Assembly (NCBI GenBank): GCA_944319885.1
Contig: CALUFC010000006.1
Coordinates: forward strand, 1-64,000
Length of the DNA stretch: 64,000 bases
Reading direction: 5' to 3'
From: an uncultured Coriobacteriaceae bacterium
GTDB taxonomy: Bacteria; Actinomycetota; Coriobacteriia; Coriobacteriales; Coriobacteriaceae
The position numbers were made by a program, and so were the translations under genes. Under the pieces are notes generated by a model. That model was given only the letters and a program-made list of their open reading frames with translations. It searched no databases and had not been told where the DNA came from. Below, one piece after another: positions 31,788 through 40,902 of this stretch (positions within the stretch are counted from its first letter, which is position 1; every line of letters begins with the position of its first letter).

Positions 31788-33142
31788 CGTGGGTCGCTCG
31801 CCAACTGACCGGAAAGATACCATGTACGAGCCGTATCGATATCGACGTCTACGATACGACCAAGATATGCATCAACGGAAACGCCATCGGGCAAAGGCGC
31901 GTGAACGGTCTGGTTCTTAGGACTCTTGCCTTGCAGCATATGAGGGTTCTTTTTCGACGTTCCCTCAACCAGCACAGGAACACGCCGCCCACGCTCGATT
32001 TGATTGAACGCATAGGCGGTATCTTCGATCACGGAAACGAGCCGATCGAAGCGATCGAGAATGACATCACGCGGGGTGTCATCGGGAATGCGTGCGGCAG
32101 GCGTACCTTCGCGACGCGAGTAGATGAAGGTGAATGCCTGGGCATAGCCCACCTCGCGCGCAAGCGAGAGCGTTTCCAAAAAGTCTTCCTCGGTCTCACC
32201 GGGAAATCCAACGATGATGTCGGTAGTCAGAGCGATTTCGGGTATACGCTCGCGCACGCTACGAACGAGCGCAAGGTAGTCCTCGCGCGTGTAGCGCCGG
32301 TTCATCTCACGAAGAATTCTCGTCGACCCCGATTGAACGGCGAGGTGCAGATGAGGCATGACGGCAGGTACGTCTGCCATGGCAGCAATGGTTTCGGGCA
32401 GCAAATCCTTGGGATGAGACGATGTGAAACGGATTCGTTCGACACCGGTGTCGCCAACGGCTCGTAAGAGCTCAGCGAACCGCGGAGCTCCGTAGCGATC
32501 GCGTCCATAGGAGTTGACGTTCTGGCCAAGGAGCGTGACTTCGCGCACGCCGGAACGAGCCAGACCAGTCACCTCATCGACGATCTCCTCGAACACGCGG
32601 CTCTTCTCCCTGCCGCGCACATAGGGAACGATGCAGTAGCTGCAAAAGTTATTGCATCCCGTCATGATGGGAACCCAAGCATGATAGGACGTGGCACGAT
32701 GCCAAGGCATGGTTGTCGCAGAACCCGTTGCATCCTCGGCGGTCAAAACATGCCGCTCATCATCTTCGAACGCAGCCTCGATCAGCTCGGATACATGCGC
32801 TATCGCATGCGTACCGAAGATCACATCGACGTTATCTACATTTACGAGCAGGCCATCGCCGTCGCGCTGCGCGATGCACCCGCCAACAGCGATGACGCGC
32901 TTGCCCGATGGAGGTTGCGGGAGGCTTTTACAGGAGTTGCACTGGCCATAGAGCCGCTGGTCCGCCGCTTCGCGAACACAGCAGGTCATGAATATGACGA
33001 TATCCGCATCCGCCGGATCTGAAACCGAGAGACATCCGCATGCATCAAGTTCGCCGCTCACTCGTTCGGAGTCATGAAGGTTCATCTGACAACCGAACGT
33101 ACGGATGAAATAGGTTTTTCCCTGCAGGGCGCGCGTGGACAT
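31784..33142 (-). CDS. miaB: tRNA-2-methylthio-N6-dimethylallyladenosine synthase
   Basis: A 452-residue radical-SAM methylthiotransferase. The N-terminal UPF0004 domain has Cys18 (RTFGCQMN), the Cys pair in MTCCVREAAD and GGCIAQ for the auxiliary cluster. The SAM cluster motif is CNNFCSYC followed by VPYVRGREKSR. A C-terminal TRAM-like domain ends the protein. ATG 33142 follows GGAGGGGAGAG. It is one of three methylthiotransferases in this window (also rimO and mtaB). spoVS lies 13 bases upstream. Confidence 0.95.
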   Translation of the reverse strand: MSTRALQGKTYFIRTFGCQMNLHDSERVSGELDACGCLSVSDPADADIVIFMTCCVREAADQRLYGQCNSCKSLPQPPSGKRVIAVGGCIAQRDGDGLLVNVDNVDVIFGTHAIAHVSELIEAAFEDDERHVLTAEDATGSATTMPWHRATSYHAWVPIMTGCNNFCSYCIVPYVRGREKSRVFEEIVDEVTGLARSGVREVTLLGQNVNSYGRDRYGAPRFAELLRAVGDTGVERIRFTSSHPKDLLPETIAAMADVPAVMPHLHLAVQSGSTRILREMNRRYTREDYLALVRSVRERIPEIALTTDIIVGFPGETEEDFLETLSLAREVGYAQAFTFIYSRREGTPAARIPDDTPRDVILDRFDRLVSVIEDTAYAFNQIERGRRVPVLVEGTSKKNPHMLQGKSPKNQTVHAPLPDGVSVDAYLGRIVDVDIDTARTWYLSGQLASDPR

Positions 33143-33155
33143 ATGCTCTCCCCTC

Positions 33156-33476
33156 CTATGCTGCAGGGTAGGCATCGTCGATGTGCTCGATACGATCCGA
33201 GCCGGACATCGAAAGCGGATGGACATAGACCGCGAGCCGGATCGCGGTTCGCGACTCGCCGTTGATGAGAATATCGGAGAACGTGGGGGCACAGGAGATG
33301 TCAAAGCCCGTGGGGATGAGGAAGCCGCGCGCGATGGCCATGGCCTTGATCGCCTGATTGACGGCACCCGCACCCACGCATTGCATGTTGACGGGCACGC
33401 CATCTTTCACCATACCGGCGATGGCTCCAGCAACCGATGCCGGAGACGACTTACTCGAGACCTTCAGATATTCCAT
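33156..33476 (-). CDS. spoVS: SpoVS-like Alba-fold protein
   Basis: A 106-residue protein. MEYLKVSSKSSPASVAGAI and the GAGAVNQAIKAMAIARGFL region match SpoVS, a small Alba-like nucleic-acid-binding protein. In Bacillus it affects sporulation stage V, but it is found in many non-sporulating bacteria, so that label says little here. The C-terminal 20 residues go beyond the 86-residue Bacillus protein. It stands between an orphan GHKL ATPase and miaB, in an order close to rny-ymdB-spoVS in Bacillus. Confidence 0.92.
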   Translation of the reverse strand: MEYLKVSSKSSPASVAGAIAGMVKDGVPVNMQCVGAGAVNQAIKAMAIARGFLIPTGFDISCAPTFSDILINGESRTAIRLAVYVHPLSMSGSDRIEHIDDAYPAA

Positions 33477-33551
33477 GATACTCCTGCGAATATAGTTCAG
33501 ATAATGTGCAGCTCTTTGAGCTTACCGTAAGGTTGAGACCGGCACAAGAAA

Positions 33552-34634
33552 TCATTCTTCCTTGGCTACCTCGAAGGTAATAGTGATCCGATCATGGCCC
33601 ACACGGACCTTTGGATCAGCGGTTGTAGATAAGTAATACTTCGAGGCGAGCTCGGAAAAGTCGCGCTCAACAGCTCGTGAGAATGCAGCGATATCTTCAC
33701 GCGAGATCTTGAGTCCGCGACGATCACGGGCAAGATCAACCGGTTTTTGCGAAGACGGCTTGGTGCGCTCGCGCAACAGGCGCGCCGACACGCTGCGCAG
33801 CGGCTTGATCGTACCGCTGAGAATGCGATGGGCGGTACGCTCGGAGATCTCTATACCGATCGAGCGGGCGATATCGATAAAATCCTGAGCGTCGGTGGCA
33901 AGTCCAAGGCGATCAACGACCGGTAACACAGAAGGGTCATCCACGAACAGCATCTGCGTGGCGTCTACCGCGGTATTCGCATGGGAATAGAGCGTCGCGG
34001 CGATTTCGGTCGGTGTGCCCAGATAGACATCGCACCCATGAAGCTCATCGAGTGCGACGGCGCAAGCAGCGCGAATGATGTTATGGGGCCCGCGAACAAG
34101 GTGAAAGGCGCCCGCATCATCTTTTTCAACCTCGGGCCAGGTGGATTGATCGGCACGCTCGGGGAGCACCGAGACATCGGCGCGAACGACAAATGCCGAG
34201 CCAAGTCCAGTATCCGAGGAGACCACGCGCGCTTCACGCACATTCTGGCGAATCGAAAAGAGGGCCATACCACGACCGTGCACGCCCCATCGATCCATCT
34301 TCATGCTCTCAAGCTTCGACGTGACGCGGGCCTCGAAGATCGCATCATGCATATCGACGGGAACTCCGCAGCCATCATCAAAAAAAAGGAGCGTACGCTC
34401 AGAATCGCTGCGGCTCGTTGCGAGGTACAGGCGTTTTGCACCGGCATCGCGCGCGTTGCGCAGCATCTCGATCACAATATCCTCTACATGCTGGATATCA
34501 TGCTTGGCCTGACGACGCTCCGCCTCCGAGACACGCAAACGAACATATCCTTCACCAAGGTTCTCCTCAACTCTGAGGTTACCCTCGCCGGTCATGGAAG
34601 CGATGAAGGATATGAGTTCGTTTGCGTCGGACAT
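33552..34634 (-). CDS. Stand-alone MutL-type GHKL ATPase, unknown function
   Basis: A 360-residue protein with a GHKL ATP-binding fold in its first half. The N box is EMLRNARDAGA (Glu56, Asn60, Asp63), motif II is FDDGCGVP (86-92), and GVHGRGMALFSI (117-128) resembles the GFRGEALxSI of MutL. VTSKL before it matches the MutL ATSKI segment. There is no MutL C-terminal domain, no histidine-kinase H box and no HSP90 middle domain. The second half (about 150-360) is unrecognised and contains a helical basic stretch (265-310). It occupies the place of ymdB between rny and spoVS. A DNA- or RNA-remodelling switch is a guess. Confidence 0.85.
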   Translation of the reverse strand: MSDANELISFIASMTGEGNLRVEENLGEGYVRLRVSEAERRQAKHDIQHVEDIVIEMLRNARDAGAKRLYLATSRSDSERTLLFFDDGCGVPVDMHDAIFEARVTSKLESMKMDRWGVHGRGMALFSIRQNVREARVVSSDTGLGSAFVVRADVSVLPERADQSTWPEVEKDDAGAFHLVRGPHNIIRAACAVALDELHGCDVYLGTPTEIAATLYSHANTAVDATQMLFVDDPSVLPVVDRLGLATDAQDFIDIARSIGIEISERTAHRILSGTIKPLRSVSARLLRERTKPSSQKPVDLARDRRGLKISREDIAAFSRAVERDFSELASKYYLSTTADPKVRVGHDRITITFEVAKEE

Positions 34635-34639
34635 AGAAG

Positions 34640-36190
34640 CTACTTCGCGATATCGACCGCGCGACTCTCGCGGATAACAACGACGCGAACCTGACCGGGA
34701 TACTCCATCTCTTCCTCGATCTGGTGCGCGATGTCATGCGCGAGGACGGTGGATTGGGCGTCGGAGATCTTATCGGGCTGCACCATAACGTGGATCTCGC
34801 GACCCGCCTGCATGGCATAGGTCCGCTCGACACCGTCGTGAGCGTTTGCGATCTCCTCAAGTTTCTCAAGGCGCTTGATGTAGTTCTCGGCAGATTCACG
34901 CCGCGCGCCCGGACGAGACGCGGAGATGGCATCGGCAGCCATCACGAGCACGGCAAGCACGGAGTCGGGGTCGACATCGCCATGATGGGCTTCGATTGCA
35001 TGGACGATGAAGGGCTTTTCACCATATCGACGGGCAAGGTCGGCGCCAATCACCGCATGCGGGCCCTCAACATCATGGTCGATGGCCTTGCCGAGGTCGT
35101 GAAGCAGGCCGGCACGACGGGCGATCTTGGCATCGAGTCCCAGCTCGGAGGCCATGATGCCGCAAAGCTCGGCAACCTCGCGGGAATGATTGAGGACGTT
35201 CTGTCCGAACGAGGTACGGTACCGGAGCGCACCAAGCGTCTTGATGATCTCGGGATGGAGGTCATGAATGCCCGTATCAAACGCCGCCTGCTCGCCGGCT
35301 TCGCGCACGCGCTGCTGCACGAGATCGGAAGCCTTTTGATACATCTCCTCGATGCGCGCGGGATGAATGCGGCCGTCGGCGATGAGATTCTCGAGCGCGA
35401 CGCGCGCCGTCTCGCGACGAACGGGATCGAAGCTCGAGAGCACCACCGTTTCAGGCGTATCGTCGATAACGAGGTTCACGCCCGACACCTGCTCGAACGT
35501 GCGGATGTTGCGCCCCTCGCGGCCGATGATGCGGCCCTTCAAATCATCCGACGGGATATGCACCGAGGTAACAGTGACCTCAGCGGTATGATCTGCCGCG
35601 CAACGCTGGATGGCTAGCGAGATGATCTCCTGGGCAGTCTTATGGCACTCAGCCTTAACCTGTTGCTCGGACTCGCGAATAATAGCCGCTGCCTCGTGCG
35701 TCACCTCGCCACGAACCTTGTCGAGAAGCTCTTGATGTGCGTCCTCACGCGTGAGGTCGGAGATGCGCTCGAGTTCGGCGGTCTGCTTGCTTACGAGTTC
35801 CTCGAGTTCACGGCTGCGCTTCTCAACCTGACCTGCTTGGCTCGAAAGCTGATGCTCGCGCTTGTCGAGCGCATCGTTACGACGGTCAAGCGACTCCTCG
35901 CGCTGCATCATCCTGTTCTCAAGCGTGCGAAGCTCGCGCTTGCGCTGCTTCTCTTCCGCCTCGGCGGCCTGCTTGCTTTGGATGATCTCCTCTTTCGCTT
36001 CGAGAAGCGCTTCTTTCTTCAAGGTCTCTGCCTGTCGCTGCGCGTCGCCGAGCAGTTGATCGGCCTGTGCGCGCGCCGACTCAAGACGCGAGTCGGCTTC
36101 ACGAAGGCTTCCCTGCTTAGCGGTGCGCATAGCGATCACGGCAGCGATGGCACCGACAACCAGGCCAACGATACCGATTACGATCTCCAT
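34640..36190 (-). CDS. rny: Ribonuclease Y
   Basis: A 516-residue membrane-anchored endoribonuclease that starts mRNA decay. A single N-terminal helix spans about 3-21. A long coiled coil (about 25-190) has regular Glu/Lys/Gln heptads. A KH domain ([15 protein letters not shown]) and an HD domain ([22 protein letters not shown]) follow. ATG 36190 has AAGGAG five bases upstream; a GTG at 36196 overlaps that site. A promoter and a terminator-like hairpin lie in the leader. The window also encodes RNase J and PNPase, its usual partners. Confidence 0.96.
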
Positions 36191-36215
36191 GTCCACTCCT
36201 TATCAATGCTCAAGA

Positions 36216-36245
36216 CAAAAAAGACTGCTCGACATAGTCGAGCAG
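36216..36245 (-). terminator. Intrinsic terminator or attenuator in the rny leader
   Basis: On the minus strand CTGCTCGAC (36245-36237) and GTCGAGCAG (36233-36225) form a perfect 9-bp stem with a three-base loop, followed by TC and TTTTTT. It can end recA-recX transcription. Because a promoter lies upstream of it, it can also act inside the rny leader. Confidence 0.85.
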
Positions 36246-36340
36246 GACATTTGCGTGGTATGGTCCCCGCAATGAATATCTCATGTGTTATATCGATCTC
36301 ATCTACGATGAGCGCATATCACAAAACAAATGACATATTC

Positions 36341-36369
36341 ATCCTACGTGGAAGATTCACGGGTGTCAA
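36341..36369 (-). promoter_or_regulatory. Promoter for rny
   Basis: On the minus strand TTGACA (36369-36364, a perfect -35) and TAGGAT (36346-36341) are exactly 17 bases apart. Transcription would start near 36334. That gives a leader of about 145 bases containing a 6-bp hairpin (36298-36312) and the terminator-like stem at 36216-36245 before the rny ribosome-binding site. Confidence 0.7.
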
Positions 36370-36403
36370 TTGTAAGGAGCACATCAAACCACCAGCTTCG
36401 TGC

Positions 36404-37072
36404 CTATGAATCGGCATCGATTCGATCACGCGCAGCTTGAGAGGCAATTGCGTACTCAAATCCCTTTCCCATAAGAAATCGCATGAGCTTAGGATACGGA
36501 TCGCGCTCGGGAATCCGTTTTCGCTCGAGCAGCGCCCGCGCCCGTTGAAGATCGTCTTCATGGGAAAAGTATGATTCAGGATAACCGGCGATCGTCGTAG
36601 GATCGATGCCTTTTCGCCGCAATTCAAGCTCGATCTTGCGCCTCCCCCAACCGCGCTGCAGGCGCTCTCGGATGAAGTACTCGCAAAAACGTTCGTTATT
36701 CAAGAAGCGATGCTGTCGTGCTTGCGCTATGGCCGATTCGATCGAGGCGCGACGGAATCCTGACCGAGCAAGCTTTTGCTCGACTTCACGTTCCGCATGA
36801 TCGCGACGAGCCAGCATCTCAAGCGTTGCGGCATAGCATATCTGTTCGTCGAGTCCGAGGAGCCACTCCGAAAGCTCATGGAGCTCACATGGCACATCTG
36901 GAAGCTCCTTTCGAGCTGCACGCGCAACTCTGGGCGGAACCGAGTAGGCATGATCGACACCGGATGGCTCTATGAACCGAACGGTTGCAAGCGGCTTCTT
37001 TGATCGATACTGAGCAGCGAGTGATTCTGCGCGCTGGGGTAGCTCGATGGCGATGTCGGCAATACGCGGCAT
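36404..37072 (-). CDS. recX: Regulatory protein RecX
   Basis: A 222-residue helical protein that binds and restrains RecA filaments. The repeated three-helix units are seen in AEREVEQKLARSGF, IESAIAQARQHRFLNNERFCEYFI and RGWGRRKIELELRRKGI. The N-terminal 70 residues are an extension with little similarity to the short RecX form. ATG 37072 starts 3 bases after the recA stop, so expression follows the SOS-controlled recA promoter. Confidence 0.9.
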   Translation of the reverse strand: MPRIADIAIELPQRAESLAAQYRSKKPLATVRFIEPSGVDHAYSVPPRVARAARKELPDVPCELHELSEWLLGLDEQICYAATLEMLARRDHAEREVEQKLARSGFRRASIESAIAQARQHRFLNNERFCEYFIRERLQRGWGRRKIELELRRKGIDPTTIAGYPESYFSHEDDLQRARALLERKRIPERDPYPKLMRFLMGKGFEYAIASQAARDRIDADS

Positions 37073-37075
37073 GGC

Positions 37076-38158
<1,083 letters not shown>

Positions 38159-38187
38159 CTGCTTCCTCCTTGAACTGCGTTGATTTG

Positions 38188-38216
38188 ATACTAAACGAAC
38201 AGCTGTTCGCGGTCAA
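38188..38216 (-). promoter_or_regulatory. recA promoter with LexA box in the spacer
   Basis: On the minus strand TTGACC (38216-38211) and TAGTAT (38193-38188) are 17 bases apart. The spacer holds CGAACAGCTGTTCG (38196-38209), a perfectly symmetric LexA site, so bound LexA would exclude polymerase. From here to the cinA stop (38217-38445) I see no further gene or clear element. Confidence 0.85.
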
Positions 38217-38445
38217 GAACGATATTGGAAGCATACAGCGCCCATCTCACACATCGACAAGGACATCCAACACAGCAAGCAGTGAAGCTCACAAGGGATT
38301 CCGGCTCATCTAACACGGCGTGGCGCACGGAGAGCTTTTACGCCTTAATGCAGGTAGAAAGCGTGCGCTTAACATGGATACTCTGGCGAGAACCAAACCG
38401 GTGCAGCACGCCCTCCATAGAAGCCGCATGAAAAGAAGCGACGCA

Positions 38446-38934
38446 TCATGAAGATTGCACACACGCGTCGATCATAAGCTGGAGCGCGGCGCAGGTTGCG
38501 GCCTCTCGAACGTCGTCCCGCGAACCGGAAAACACGAACCGTTGCACGGTGACGCCCTGAAGCATCGCTCGTCCGAGGTACACCGTTCCCACAGGGTCGT
38601 CTTCGGTGCCGCCATCGGGCCCCGCGTAACCGGTAAGGCTCACCGCGATATCGGCGCCAAACAAGCGCCGAGCACCCTGCGCCATCTCATACGCGGTCTG
38701 TCGCGACACGGCGGTATATGTAGAAAGCGTTGCTTCGGAAACTCCGAGCACCCGATGCTTCACGGTGTCGGTATAGGTGACCGCCCCACCGTTCAATACC
38801 ATGGATGCCCCCGGAATCGAGGCGATGGTCGCTGAAACCATACCGGCGGTAAGTGATTCGGCGGTTGCCAGAGACAGACCTCGTGCACGCGCCGCATAAA
38901 CGAGGCTGCTCGCGAGCTCGATACGGTTTTCCAT
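38446..38934 (-). CDS. CinA C-terminal domain protein (nicotinamide-nucleotide amidase, PncC-like)
   Basis: A 162-residue protein containing only the CinA C-terminal domain, which deamidates nicotinamide mononucleotide to nicotinate mononucleotide. TAESLTAGMVSATIASIPGAS, then GGAVTYTDTVKHRVLGV and SLTGYAGPDGGTEDDPVGTVYLG, are conserved. The N-terminal molybdopterin-binding-like half of full CinA is absent, and the start is clean, so this is a natural short form. The pgsA-cinA-recA order is conserved widely. Confidence 0.93.
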   Translation of the reverse strand: MENRIELASSLVYAARARGLSLATAESLTAGMVSATIASIPGASMVLNGGAVTYTDTVKHRVLGVSEATLSTYTAVSRQTAYEMAQGARRLFGADIAVSLTGYAGPDGGTEDDPVGTVYLGRAMLQGVTVQRFVFSGSRDDVREAATCAALQLMIDACVQSS

Positions 38935-38939
38935 GCCTG

Positions 38940-39551
38940 CTACACCCGAAACACGATCTCGCGGCAGTTCCAGAAGTACTGGACGCCCGATACCACGGTG
39001 AGCACGACAGCGGCGATCATGAGCGCCTGACCGAGAATCCAGAGCTCATACGCCACACCGAAAAATGCCGCAGCGCGAACGAACAGCAGCGTGCAGAGGG
39101 CGACCATGGTCACCGCGGTCTTCGCCTTGCCGAGAGAATCGGCAGCGATCACGCAGCCATTGGCGCTGGCAACCATGCGCAGCGCGCTCACCAAAAACTC
39201 TCGTAGCAAGATGATGAACACGACCCACACGTCAACCATACCCTGAGCAAGGAAGACAAGCAGAGCCGAGAAAACGAGCAGCTTATCGGCGATGGGATCA
39301 AGAAACTTGCCAAAATCGGTGATCTCGTTGCGGCTTCGGGCGAGCGAGCCGTCCACTTTGTCGGTGAGACTCAGCACCACGTAGACGATGAAGGCAACGA
39401 TGGCCTGCACATGGGCGGGCATGCCGAACGCCGAGAACGCGTCGGTGGCAAAGAGCATGAAAATGGGAATGAAGAGGATGCGAACGCAGGTGACGATATT
39501 CGCCGGCGTCCAGATGCTGGTGAGCTCTCCCTGCTCGTTACGAGAAGACAC
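38940..39551 (-). CDS. pgsA: CDP-diacylglycerol-glycerol-3-phosphate 3-phosphatidyltransferase
   Basis: A 203-residue polytopic enzyme making phosphatidylglycerol phosphate. The motif DGx2ARx8Gx3Dx3D is intact (Asp67, Gly68, Ala71, Arg72, Gly81, Asp85, Asp89), and TPANIVTCVRILFIPIF at the N-terminus and REFLVSALRM are typical of PgsA. The location directly before cinA-recA is the standard pgsA place, so this copy is the likely true PgsA. The GTG start has only a weak ribosome-binding site. rimO ends 4 bases upstream, suggesting coupling. Confidence 0.93.
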   Translation of the reverse strand: MSSRNEQGELTSIWTPANIVTCVRILFIPIFMLFATDAFSAFGMPAHVQAIVAFIVYVVLSLTDKVDGSLARSRNEITDFGKFLDPIADKLLVFSALLVFLAQGMVDVWVVFIILLREFLVSALRMVASANGCVIAADSLGKAKTAVTMVALCTLLFVRAAAFFGVAYELWILGQALMIAAVVLTVVSGVQYFWNCREIVFRV

Positions 39552-39555
39552 GGTG

Positions 39556-40902
39556 CTATCTCACAACCTTTCCGATCAGCTCATAGCAAAAGCTGTCCGT
39601 GAACTCGACCTCAAGGATATCGCCCACGCTCGCCTCGTCAATATCAAGGTGGACGGCACCGTCTGAATCAGGTGCCTGGAACCATGCATGACCAATGAGC
39701 TCGGGACCATCCTCGGTTTCCTCGATACCGTCGACGATCACCTCGGCGGTCTTCCCCACATGCTCCGCCGTCGCGGCAAAACCGAGCGCTTCGGCAAGAT
39801 CGGTCGCAGCCTGGGCGCGTTCAAGCTTGATGTCTTCAGGAACCTGCCCGTCCATACGCGCGGCACGCGTACCATCTTCCTGAGAATACGCGAACACGCT
39901 CGTGTAATCGAAGCCGATGCGATCCATGAACGAGAGCAGTTCCTCGAACTCTTCATCGGTCTCGCCGGGGAAACCGACAAGTGCGGTGGAGCGAATCACC
40001 ATACCGGGGATCTGCTCACGAAGCCGTGCAAAGAGCTCCTCGTATTCCTCGGGCGAACCCTCGCGGCGCATCTGCTTGAGCACGCGCGACGAGCAATGCT
40101 GGATGGGGATATCGATATAGGGCAGGACCTCAGGTGTGTCGCGAATGGCGGCGACCAGCTCGTCGGTCATGCCCTCAGGCTGGAGATAGAGCACGCGAAT
40201 CCACACGTGATGCGGGCGAAGGGCGCCCGCTACAGCCTGCAGAAGCTGAGCCAGGTTGCCTGGACCCGAGCCGCGCTGCTCGTCGGTGAAATCGGTGCCC
40301 CACACGCCGGTATCCTGTCCGATGAGCACGATCTCCGATACGCCGCCGGCAACGAGTTCGCACGCCTCGGCGATGATGTCCTCTGCAAAGCGGGAATGGT
40401 AACGGCCGCGAATATAGGGAATGGCGCAGAAGCTGCACATGCGATCGCAGCCATCGGAGATCTTCACATAGGCAACCGCGCCTTCAACGGTGCGCTTCAC
40501 CTGGGGAACGTGAGCGGGCTCGGCACGCGAAACCCCAAGCAGCTTATCGACCACGCCAACGATGCCATCCTCCTCATCGGTCTTCACGAAGGCGGCCACC
40601 TCGGGAAGCTCGGGAGGGAGATCGTCACCATAGCGCGAGGGAACGCATCCGCACATGACGATCGGCGTCGTGCGGACGCCTTCGCTCACCTCGTCTGCAA
40701 GCTCGAGCGTGCATTCGATGCTCTCCGAGGTTGCCGACGCAAGGAACGAGCACGTATTGATGATGGCGAGATCCGCCTCGTCAGCGGAGGTTGCCTCGGT
40801 ATAGCCCGACGAAGCGAGCAGAGAACGCATGCGGTCGGTATCGACTTCGTTTTTCGCACAACCCAGCGTTACATAGAGTATCGAGCCCAGGCTCGTTTCC
40901 AT
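39556..40902 (-). CDS. rimO: Ribosomal protein S12 methylthiotransferase RimO
   Basis: A 448-residue radical-SAM enzyme that methylthiolates an aspartate of ribosomal protein S12. The N-terminal cluster cysteines are Cys15 (TLGCAKNEVD), the Cys of NTCSFLASA and that of CGCVPSRY. The SAM motif is CDRMCSFCAIPYIRGRYHSR, in which SFCAIPxIRG distinguishes RimO from MiaB. A TRAM domain ends the protein. ATG 40902 follows AAAGGATC; a GTG at 40917 is in frame but overlaps that site. Confidence 0.95.
   Translation of the reverse strand: METSLGSILYVTLGCAKNEVDTDRMRSLLASSGYTEATSADEADLAIINTCSFLASATSESIECTLELADEVSEGVRTTPIVMCGCVPSRYGDDLPPELPEVAAFVKTDEEDGIVGVVDKLLGVSRAEPAHVPQVKRTVEGAVAYVKISDGCDRMCSFCAIPYIRGRYHSRFAEDIIAEACELVAGGVSEIVLIGQDTGVWGTDFTDEQRGSGPGNLAQLLQAVAGALRPHHVWIRVLYLQPEGMTDELVAAIRDTPEVLPYIDIPIQHCSSRVLKQMRREGSPEEYEELFARLREQIPGMVIRSTALVGFPGETDEEFEELLSFMDRIGFDYTSVFAYSQEDGTRAARMDGQVPEDIKLERAQAATDLAEALGFAATAEHVGKTAEVIVDGIEETEDGPELIGHAWFQAPDSDGAVHLDIDEASVGDILEVEFTDSFCYELIGKVVR

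Follow-up and report, generated by a model that had tools for sequence, protein, structure and literature searches.

PMC10303841 describes RNase Y of Bacillus subtilis as autoregulated through cuts in the 5′ untranslated region (UTR) and the open reading frame (ORF) of its own gene, rny, and many RNA ends are reported for the same 5′ UTR in PMC11780869. In Escherichia coli, a stem-loop is found in the leader of rne, which also encodes a decay-initiating RNase (as recounted in PMC10303841). The subject of this study is the predicted 5′ leader of rny in a stretch of 64,000 nucleotides (nt) of DNA, hereafter the window, from an uncultured Coriobacteriaceae bacterium of the gut. With moderate confidence, it is read here as a cis-acting structured leader that sets the level of RNase Y, probably by feedback, and in the window a terminator is read as a further gate.

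The resemblance to B. subtilis rny, as far as that gene is described in PMC10303841, covers the gene itself, a long 5′ UTR (predicted at 144 nt here, against 164 nt in B. subtilis) and a sigma-A-type promoter of its own. Feedback has been shown experimentally for B. subtilis, whereas the leader described here is known from sequence. The parallel with E. coli rne lies in the logic: enzyme and RNA are unrelated, binding has been shown for rne, and no terminator is mentioned in the account given of it in PMC10303841. No report of a Coriobacteriia rny leader was recognized in open-license full texts, although an earlier unnamed listing in a survey is possible (e.g., among the 3161 candidates of PMC8040213), and no open-license full text combining RNase Y and "Coriobacteri" was found.

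A conserved structure upstream of rny

The genomes were grouped into families labelled f1 to f29. The window belongs to f1, identified as Coriobacteriaceae by RNase Y similarity, while we infer f5 to be Atopobiaceae and f2 to be Eggerthellaceae. The covariance model R1 matches 64 of 65 f1 genomes, once each at E ≤ 0.001, and the sole genome without a match is 72% complete. Two further matches in the window's own genome both have E > 1. In all 55 f1 genomes for which both coordinates are available, the element shares the strand of rny and precedes it by 4–25 nt. A search of 297 genomes of the order returned weak matches in 16 genomes outside f1 (best E 6e-4) and a weak second match in five f1 genomes. 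Control of rny in cis is strongly suggested because the element is single-copy, keeps its position and is conserved; a fold kept by evolution beside rny alone suggests, moreover, that the cell uses the leader to set the amount of RNase Y.

In the window, a helix (P1) opens at the predicted transcription start (+1), encloses a second helix (P2) and abuts a terminator-like hairpin (Table 1). The stretch 36180–36340, which includes a few bases upstream of +1, out-folds 200 of 200 dinucleotide shuffles (z −3.4). A preliminary sequence-only reading had placed a promoter, a 6-base-pair (bp) hairpin at 36298–36312 and a 9-bp stem with a U tract between recX and rny, and all of these are present on the minus strand. 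It had also held that the stem can terminate rny transcripts, which agrees with an rny promoter upstream, a +1 predicted at a conserved helix and a hairpin inside the transcript. Pattern scans of 33000–40000 gave five promoter-like sites against 2.6 (standard deviation (sd) 1.4) in shuffled sequence, which is not clearly above chance, and five terminator-like sites against 5.5 (sd 2.7), which is not above chance. It is conservation in f1, unlike the scans alone, that gives reason to believe in promoter and hairpin beyond chance.

For f1, 44 unique leaders were kept at first (L021 was missed), 34 of which were aligned (alignment A1). A larger set of 64 leaders was reduced to 28 representatives; an earlier version of it comprised 57 of the 64 leaders and 25 representatives. 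The promoter spacer measures 17 nt in all 46 unique f1 leaders that fit the promoter pattern (two others did not fit). In these 46, the conserved part starts 6 nt (36 leaders) or 7 nt (10 leaders) past the −10 element, coinciding with the expected +1, and extends to the hairpin. RNAalifold recovers both P1 and P2 from the f1 alignment, in which the sequence between the helices is likewise conserved. The hairpin that follows begins 0–2 nt past P1 in 28 of 28 representatives, and in the set of 25 it reaches −16.4 kcal/mol compared with −7.9 (sd 0.5) in mononucleotide shuffles.

Nearly all A1 cells of P1 and P2 are paired (Table 1), with little variation in P1 and with both sides changed in two of the six P2 pairs. 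Cells with a double change number nine in A1, against 3.5 in shuffles. In the 28 representatives, the preference of P2 strands for their own partner was equalled in 3 of 10000 permutations; a tentative third helix, P1b, was intermediate (145/10000), and a control gave 624/10000. The compensating changes that had been proposed as a check on relatives' leaders are present in P2 of f1, and base pairs covary in other families too.

Related leaders across Coriobacteriia

A further 100 regions were taken, 20 from f1 and 80 containing rny leaders from other families. Many of these families share a common plan written in different letters: a helix near +1, an inner hairpin and a second hairpin directly after.

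In f5, 28 of 40 leaders fitted a strict anchor pattern (12 did not), giving 21 representatives (alignment A2). Both P1 (z −7.5) and the 3′ hairpin (z −9.5) covary, each with 0/10000, compared with z −0.4 for a control, and A2 contains 60 double-change cells against 20.7 when shuffled. Paired cells amount to 93.4% for P1 and 90.1% for the 3′ hairpin, and to only 68.5% for the inner hairpin P2. The best P1 duplex of the 28 leaders starts 2–5 nt past the −10 element, slightly upstream of the expected +1, so that transcription may leave out its outermost pairs. The f5 motif occurs once each in 33 of 197 order genomes, namely in 32 of 49 f5 genomes and one f3 genome, and it stands beside rny in 32 of 32 f5 genomes.

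The f5 leaders also display two invariant stretches, GGGUUC and GUCUCC(U/A)GAAC, with a freely covarying stem between them, shortly before the Shine–Dalgarno sequence of rny (A2 columns 132–181; L163:82–237, L164:349–488). The UCUCC within them could pair with AGGAG, and the element looks like one of protein or ribosome-site control. This anti-Shine–Dalgarno pairing gave no covariation signal in f5 (z −0.8), its partners being nearly invariant.

Alignment A3 comprises 23 of 26 f2 leaders, L183 and L195 having been excluded beforehand and L216 left unmatched. Pairing extends to 96.9% of cells in P1, 83.5% in P2 and 74.8% in the terminator, with 15 double-change cells against 4.7 in shuffles. 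The model R3 matches 43 of 197 order genomes. All but one of these belong to f2 (42 of the 48 f2 genomes sampled), and 33 of the 43 matches were checked for position, all 33 adjoining rny. Similar UUCAUA stretches occur mid-leader in f1 (A1 columns 72–78) and f2 (A3 columns 52–58), where they are unpaired in the P1–P2 model.

Among the remaining families, both anchors were found in 24 of 34 leaders (10 lacked an anchor), yielding 23 representatives. P1 covaries here as well (z −6.15, 0/10000), with two null controls, even though L196, its identical twin L076 and L198 carried a wrong 5′ anchor in this test, which counts against P1. A further alignment, A4, joins 19 leaders of 11 other families, with L196 entered at its proper start. 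The model R2 matches 62 of 149 class genomes, 49 of the 62 lying outside its training set, and is present in 59 of 81 genomes of other orders. Of its 62 matches, 57 are just upstream of rny, and three short ones are elsewhere; for the last two, match and rny are on different contigs and rny begins at a contig end, which is read as a contig break. On the evidence of these alignments and models, a structured rny leader of this kind spans much of the class Coriobacteriia.

No Rfam family matched at or near its gathering score in the window or in sets of 20 and 16 leaders; the best chance matches (RefA5, E 0.53; isrJ, E 0.45; mir-598, E 0.99) all fall far below their gathering scores. Actino-pnp, as its name conveys, is linked with an RNase gene, pnp. 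It is listed as cis-regulatory and, like Collinsella-1 (RF01700), Actino-pnp (RF01688) belongs to the structured RNAs of Actinobacteria listed in PMC2864571. Both are in the Rfam library that was searched, and neither matched the rny leader.

Termination, feedback and competing explanations

By sequence, the hairpin of the window is a canonical terminator (9 bp, −14.3 kcal/mol, seven T in eight). The 8 nt after the hairpin contain on average 4.2 T in f1 compared with 2.3 in the next 8, and 5.0 compared with 2.7 in f2. At least five T in eight are found in 12 of the 28 f1 representatives. In the 25-representative set, 11 of 25 reach this number, compared with 0 of 24 in the next 8 nt; the corresponding figures in f2 are 17 of 23 and 0 of 23, and the remaining families reach 11 of 24. 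No U tract follows the hairpin in f5 leaders. The arms of the f1 terminator hairpin and of P2 in f2 were chosen by folding each sequence, so their z values are circular; they were replaced by position, shuffle controls and column counts.

The relation between P1 and the terminator differs among families. In f1 the two only abut, with no base in common. In A4 the GCC that ends P1 also opens the terminator stem, and all 19 leaders can pair both ways if G–U pairs are counted, although the anchors fix part of this; because the GCC is common to both, the complete P1 and the terminator are mutually exclusive there. The adenine riboswitch of pbuE has a comparable architecture, with the 3′ strand of P1 overlapping the 5′ arm of the terminator. 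The overlap seen in the 11 other families is the same, while it is absent in f1, and no ligand is known for the rny leaders.

An alternative antiterminator, which the sequence-only reading had suggested looking for, was not found in f1 leaders: seven leader segments were compared with the 5′ arm of the terminator, and none covaries with it (all p > 0.18). Against the 3′ arm, one segment gave p 0.035 and downstream sequence gave p 0.005, which is not significant over the 16 tests (seven segments against each arm plus two downstream). The proposal of attenuation thus survives in part. Speaking for it are the leader's own promoter, the T enrichment and the GCC shared in 19 leaders of 11 families; speaking against it are the missing covarying antiterminator in f1 and the U tract, which is weak (fewer than five T in eight) in 16 of 28 f1 representatives, so that termination is not what f1 keeps. 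As a mode of control, attenuation is thus partly supported: it may operate in the window, and the evidence for it is better in other families. Attenuation through a leader peptide was also considered and is disfavored: several relatives have AUACGC in place of the window's AUG (AUGCGCUCAUCGUAG), and no Shine–Dalgarno sequence precedes it.

Feedback is favored because the element adjoins rny and occurs once per genome in f1. Given that RNase Y of B. subtilis regulates its own mRNA by cleavage within the 5′ UTR and ORF, feedback by RNase Y is plausibly the likeliest use of the leader. RNase Y, or a complex containing it, would bind or cut the leader and thereby lower its own mRNA. By forming at +1, P1 would tie up the 5′ end and slow the decay that starts there. 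In the window, some transcripts would stop at the terminator, giving an RNA of about 118 nt, while the others would continue into rny. In families where P1 and terminator compete for the GCC, a closed P1 would favor readthrough. Among the rny leaders, some retain a terminator, some have a weakened one and some have none; these natural variants make it possible to test directly how an RNase gene measures its own product.

Several observations weigh against a structured feedback leader of this kind. Two of the five covariation measures in A1 are at chance, i.e., pairs with a double change (185/500) and further pair types (356/500). P1 hardly varies in f1, and its own-partner preference in the 28 representatives is weak (333/10000 permutations). 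The weak U tract of those 16 f1 representatives belongs here too, as do the 22 of 81 other-order genomes without an R2 match, including all those sampled from f11, f13 and f14. Finally, the window's own RNA free-folds with P1 at 0.10 (P2 0.90), unlike 24 of 25 representatives.

Free folding of the 25 f1 representatives puts P1 above 0.5 in 24 and P2 above 0.5 in only five, and in f1 a long rod that consumes the arms of P2 has a similar energy to P2, the two excluding each other. The rod is favored over P2 in 21 of 28 representatives, the mean difference being −2.3 kcal/mol, compared with +1.6 (sd 0.6) for 100 shuffles. These folds could belong to a two-state switch dedicated to RNase Y and spanning much of the class, in which P2 and rod alternate, P1 acts as antiterminator where the GCC is shared, and idle RNase Y opens or cuts P1 so that the terminator forms and rny is turned off. 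We regard this elaboration as doubtful. The fold of the window's own RNA, with P1 at 0.10 and P2 at 0.90, speaks against two states. The rod pairings of f1 covary weakly at best, with p 0.06 or nothing in the set of 25; with 28 representatives, the competing pairings gave p 0.009, 0.02 and 0.27, and a control gave p 0.06. In f2, a test with long segments returned z −3.2, and the signal was gone (z −0.9 and −0.4) once the test was restricted to the 5′ arm of P2; the first signal is put down to an extension of P1.

The shared GCC of the 19 A4 leaders (part of it fixed by the anchors), together with the invariant internal loop GGGUUC…GUCUCC(U/A)GAAC of f5 leaders, would also suit a riboswitch-type attenuator, in which binding of a ligand, or of some protein that is not RNase Y, holds P1 closed and blocks the terminator, or does the reverse. 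Metabolite riboswitches usually serve several genes, whereas this element was found next to no gene but rny in the genomes where its position was checked. As f1 has neither shared bases nor a covarying antiterminator, and no scanned leader matched Rfam, such an attenuator is unlikely. An equally improbable account dispenses with notable regulation: the hairpin would be a terminator shared with recA–recX and a constitutive partial brake on rny, and P1 would do no more than protect the 5′ end. That P1 and hairpin lie flush in f1 without a common base, so that they can coexist, and that the U tract varies freely among f1 relatives would fit this account; against it, the conservation of the leader sequence between the helices goes beyond the needs of a 5′ clamp and a terminator. 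A trans-acting small RNA with its own terminator, from which rny would be read by leakage, is the least probable of these explanations. The promoter, the compact fold and the terminator (with at least five T in eight in 17 of 23 f2 leaders) are what such an RNA would have, but the element lies beside rny wherever its position was checked, except for stray weak matches, and the hairpin of f5 leaders lacks a U tract.

Coordinates and neighboring features

The features of the leader and of rny are collected in Table 1. On the minus strand, recA (38158–37076) is followed by recX (37072–36404) and then by rny, which encodes RNase Y, an enzyme that degrades messenger RNA. Among named records, the closest RNase Y relatives come from a Coriobacteriaceae metagenome-assembled genome (98% identical), followed by Collinsella records at no more than 93%.

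Table 1. Positions of the rny leader, its predicted elements and rny within the window.
Feature	Positions	Strand	Basis
Predicted 5′ leader of rny, 144 nt, running from the predicted +1 to the last base ahead of the ATG (36190)	36191..36334	−	Promoter spacing and sequence; +1 predicted
Promoter TTGACA (36369–36364), 17-nt spacer, TAGGAT (36346–36341)	36341..36369	−	10/12 consensus matches; kept in f1
P1 5′ strand GUCAUUUG, first base = predicted +1	36327..36334	−	97.9% of A1 cells paired; homologous helix covaries elsewhere
P1 3′ strand CAAAUGUC	36246..36253	−	As for P1 5′ strand
Hairpin P2, CUCAUC (36312–36307)/GAUGAG (36303–36298), loop GUA	36298..36312	−	98.5% of A1 cells paired
P1b 5′ strand GUGAUAUG, tentative helix	36315..36322	−	78.6% of A1 cells paired
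P1b 3′ strand CAUACCAC, tentative helix	36255..36262	−	As for P1b 5′ strand
Terminator-like hairpin, 9 bp, CTGCTCGAC-TAT-GTCGAGCAG, loop UAU, flush with P1 end	36225..36245	−	Sequence; hairpin position kept in f1
U tract UCUUUUUU (DNA TCTTTTTT)	36217..36224	−	7 T in 8
Shine–Dalgarno sequence AAGGAG	36196..36201	−	Read from sequence
rny (RNase Y), start ATG 36190	34640..36190	−	Shine–Dalgarno position and relatives

The ORF list opens rny at the first GTG, 36196. Because this GTG falls within AAGGAG, the ATG at 36190 fits better and is taken as the start.

The leader was also compared with 6S RNA (RF00013), and this identity was rejected: the match of the window's own genome lies elsewhere, outside the window (G000:C8:66529–66689), and at 38.4 bits it falls below the cut-off of 46.4. 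At E ≤ 0.001, similarly weak 6S-like matches are present in 33 of 40 relatives, and G000:C8:66529–66689 is probably an undescribed 6S RNA of this group.
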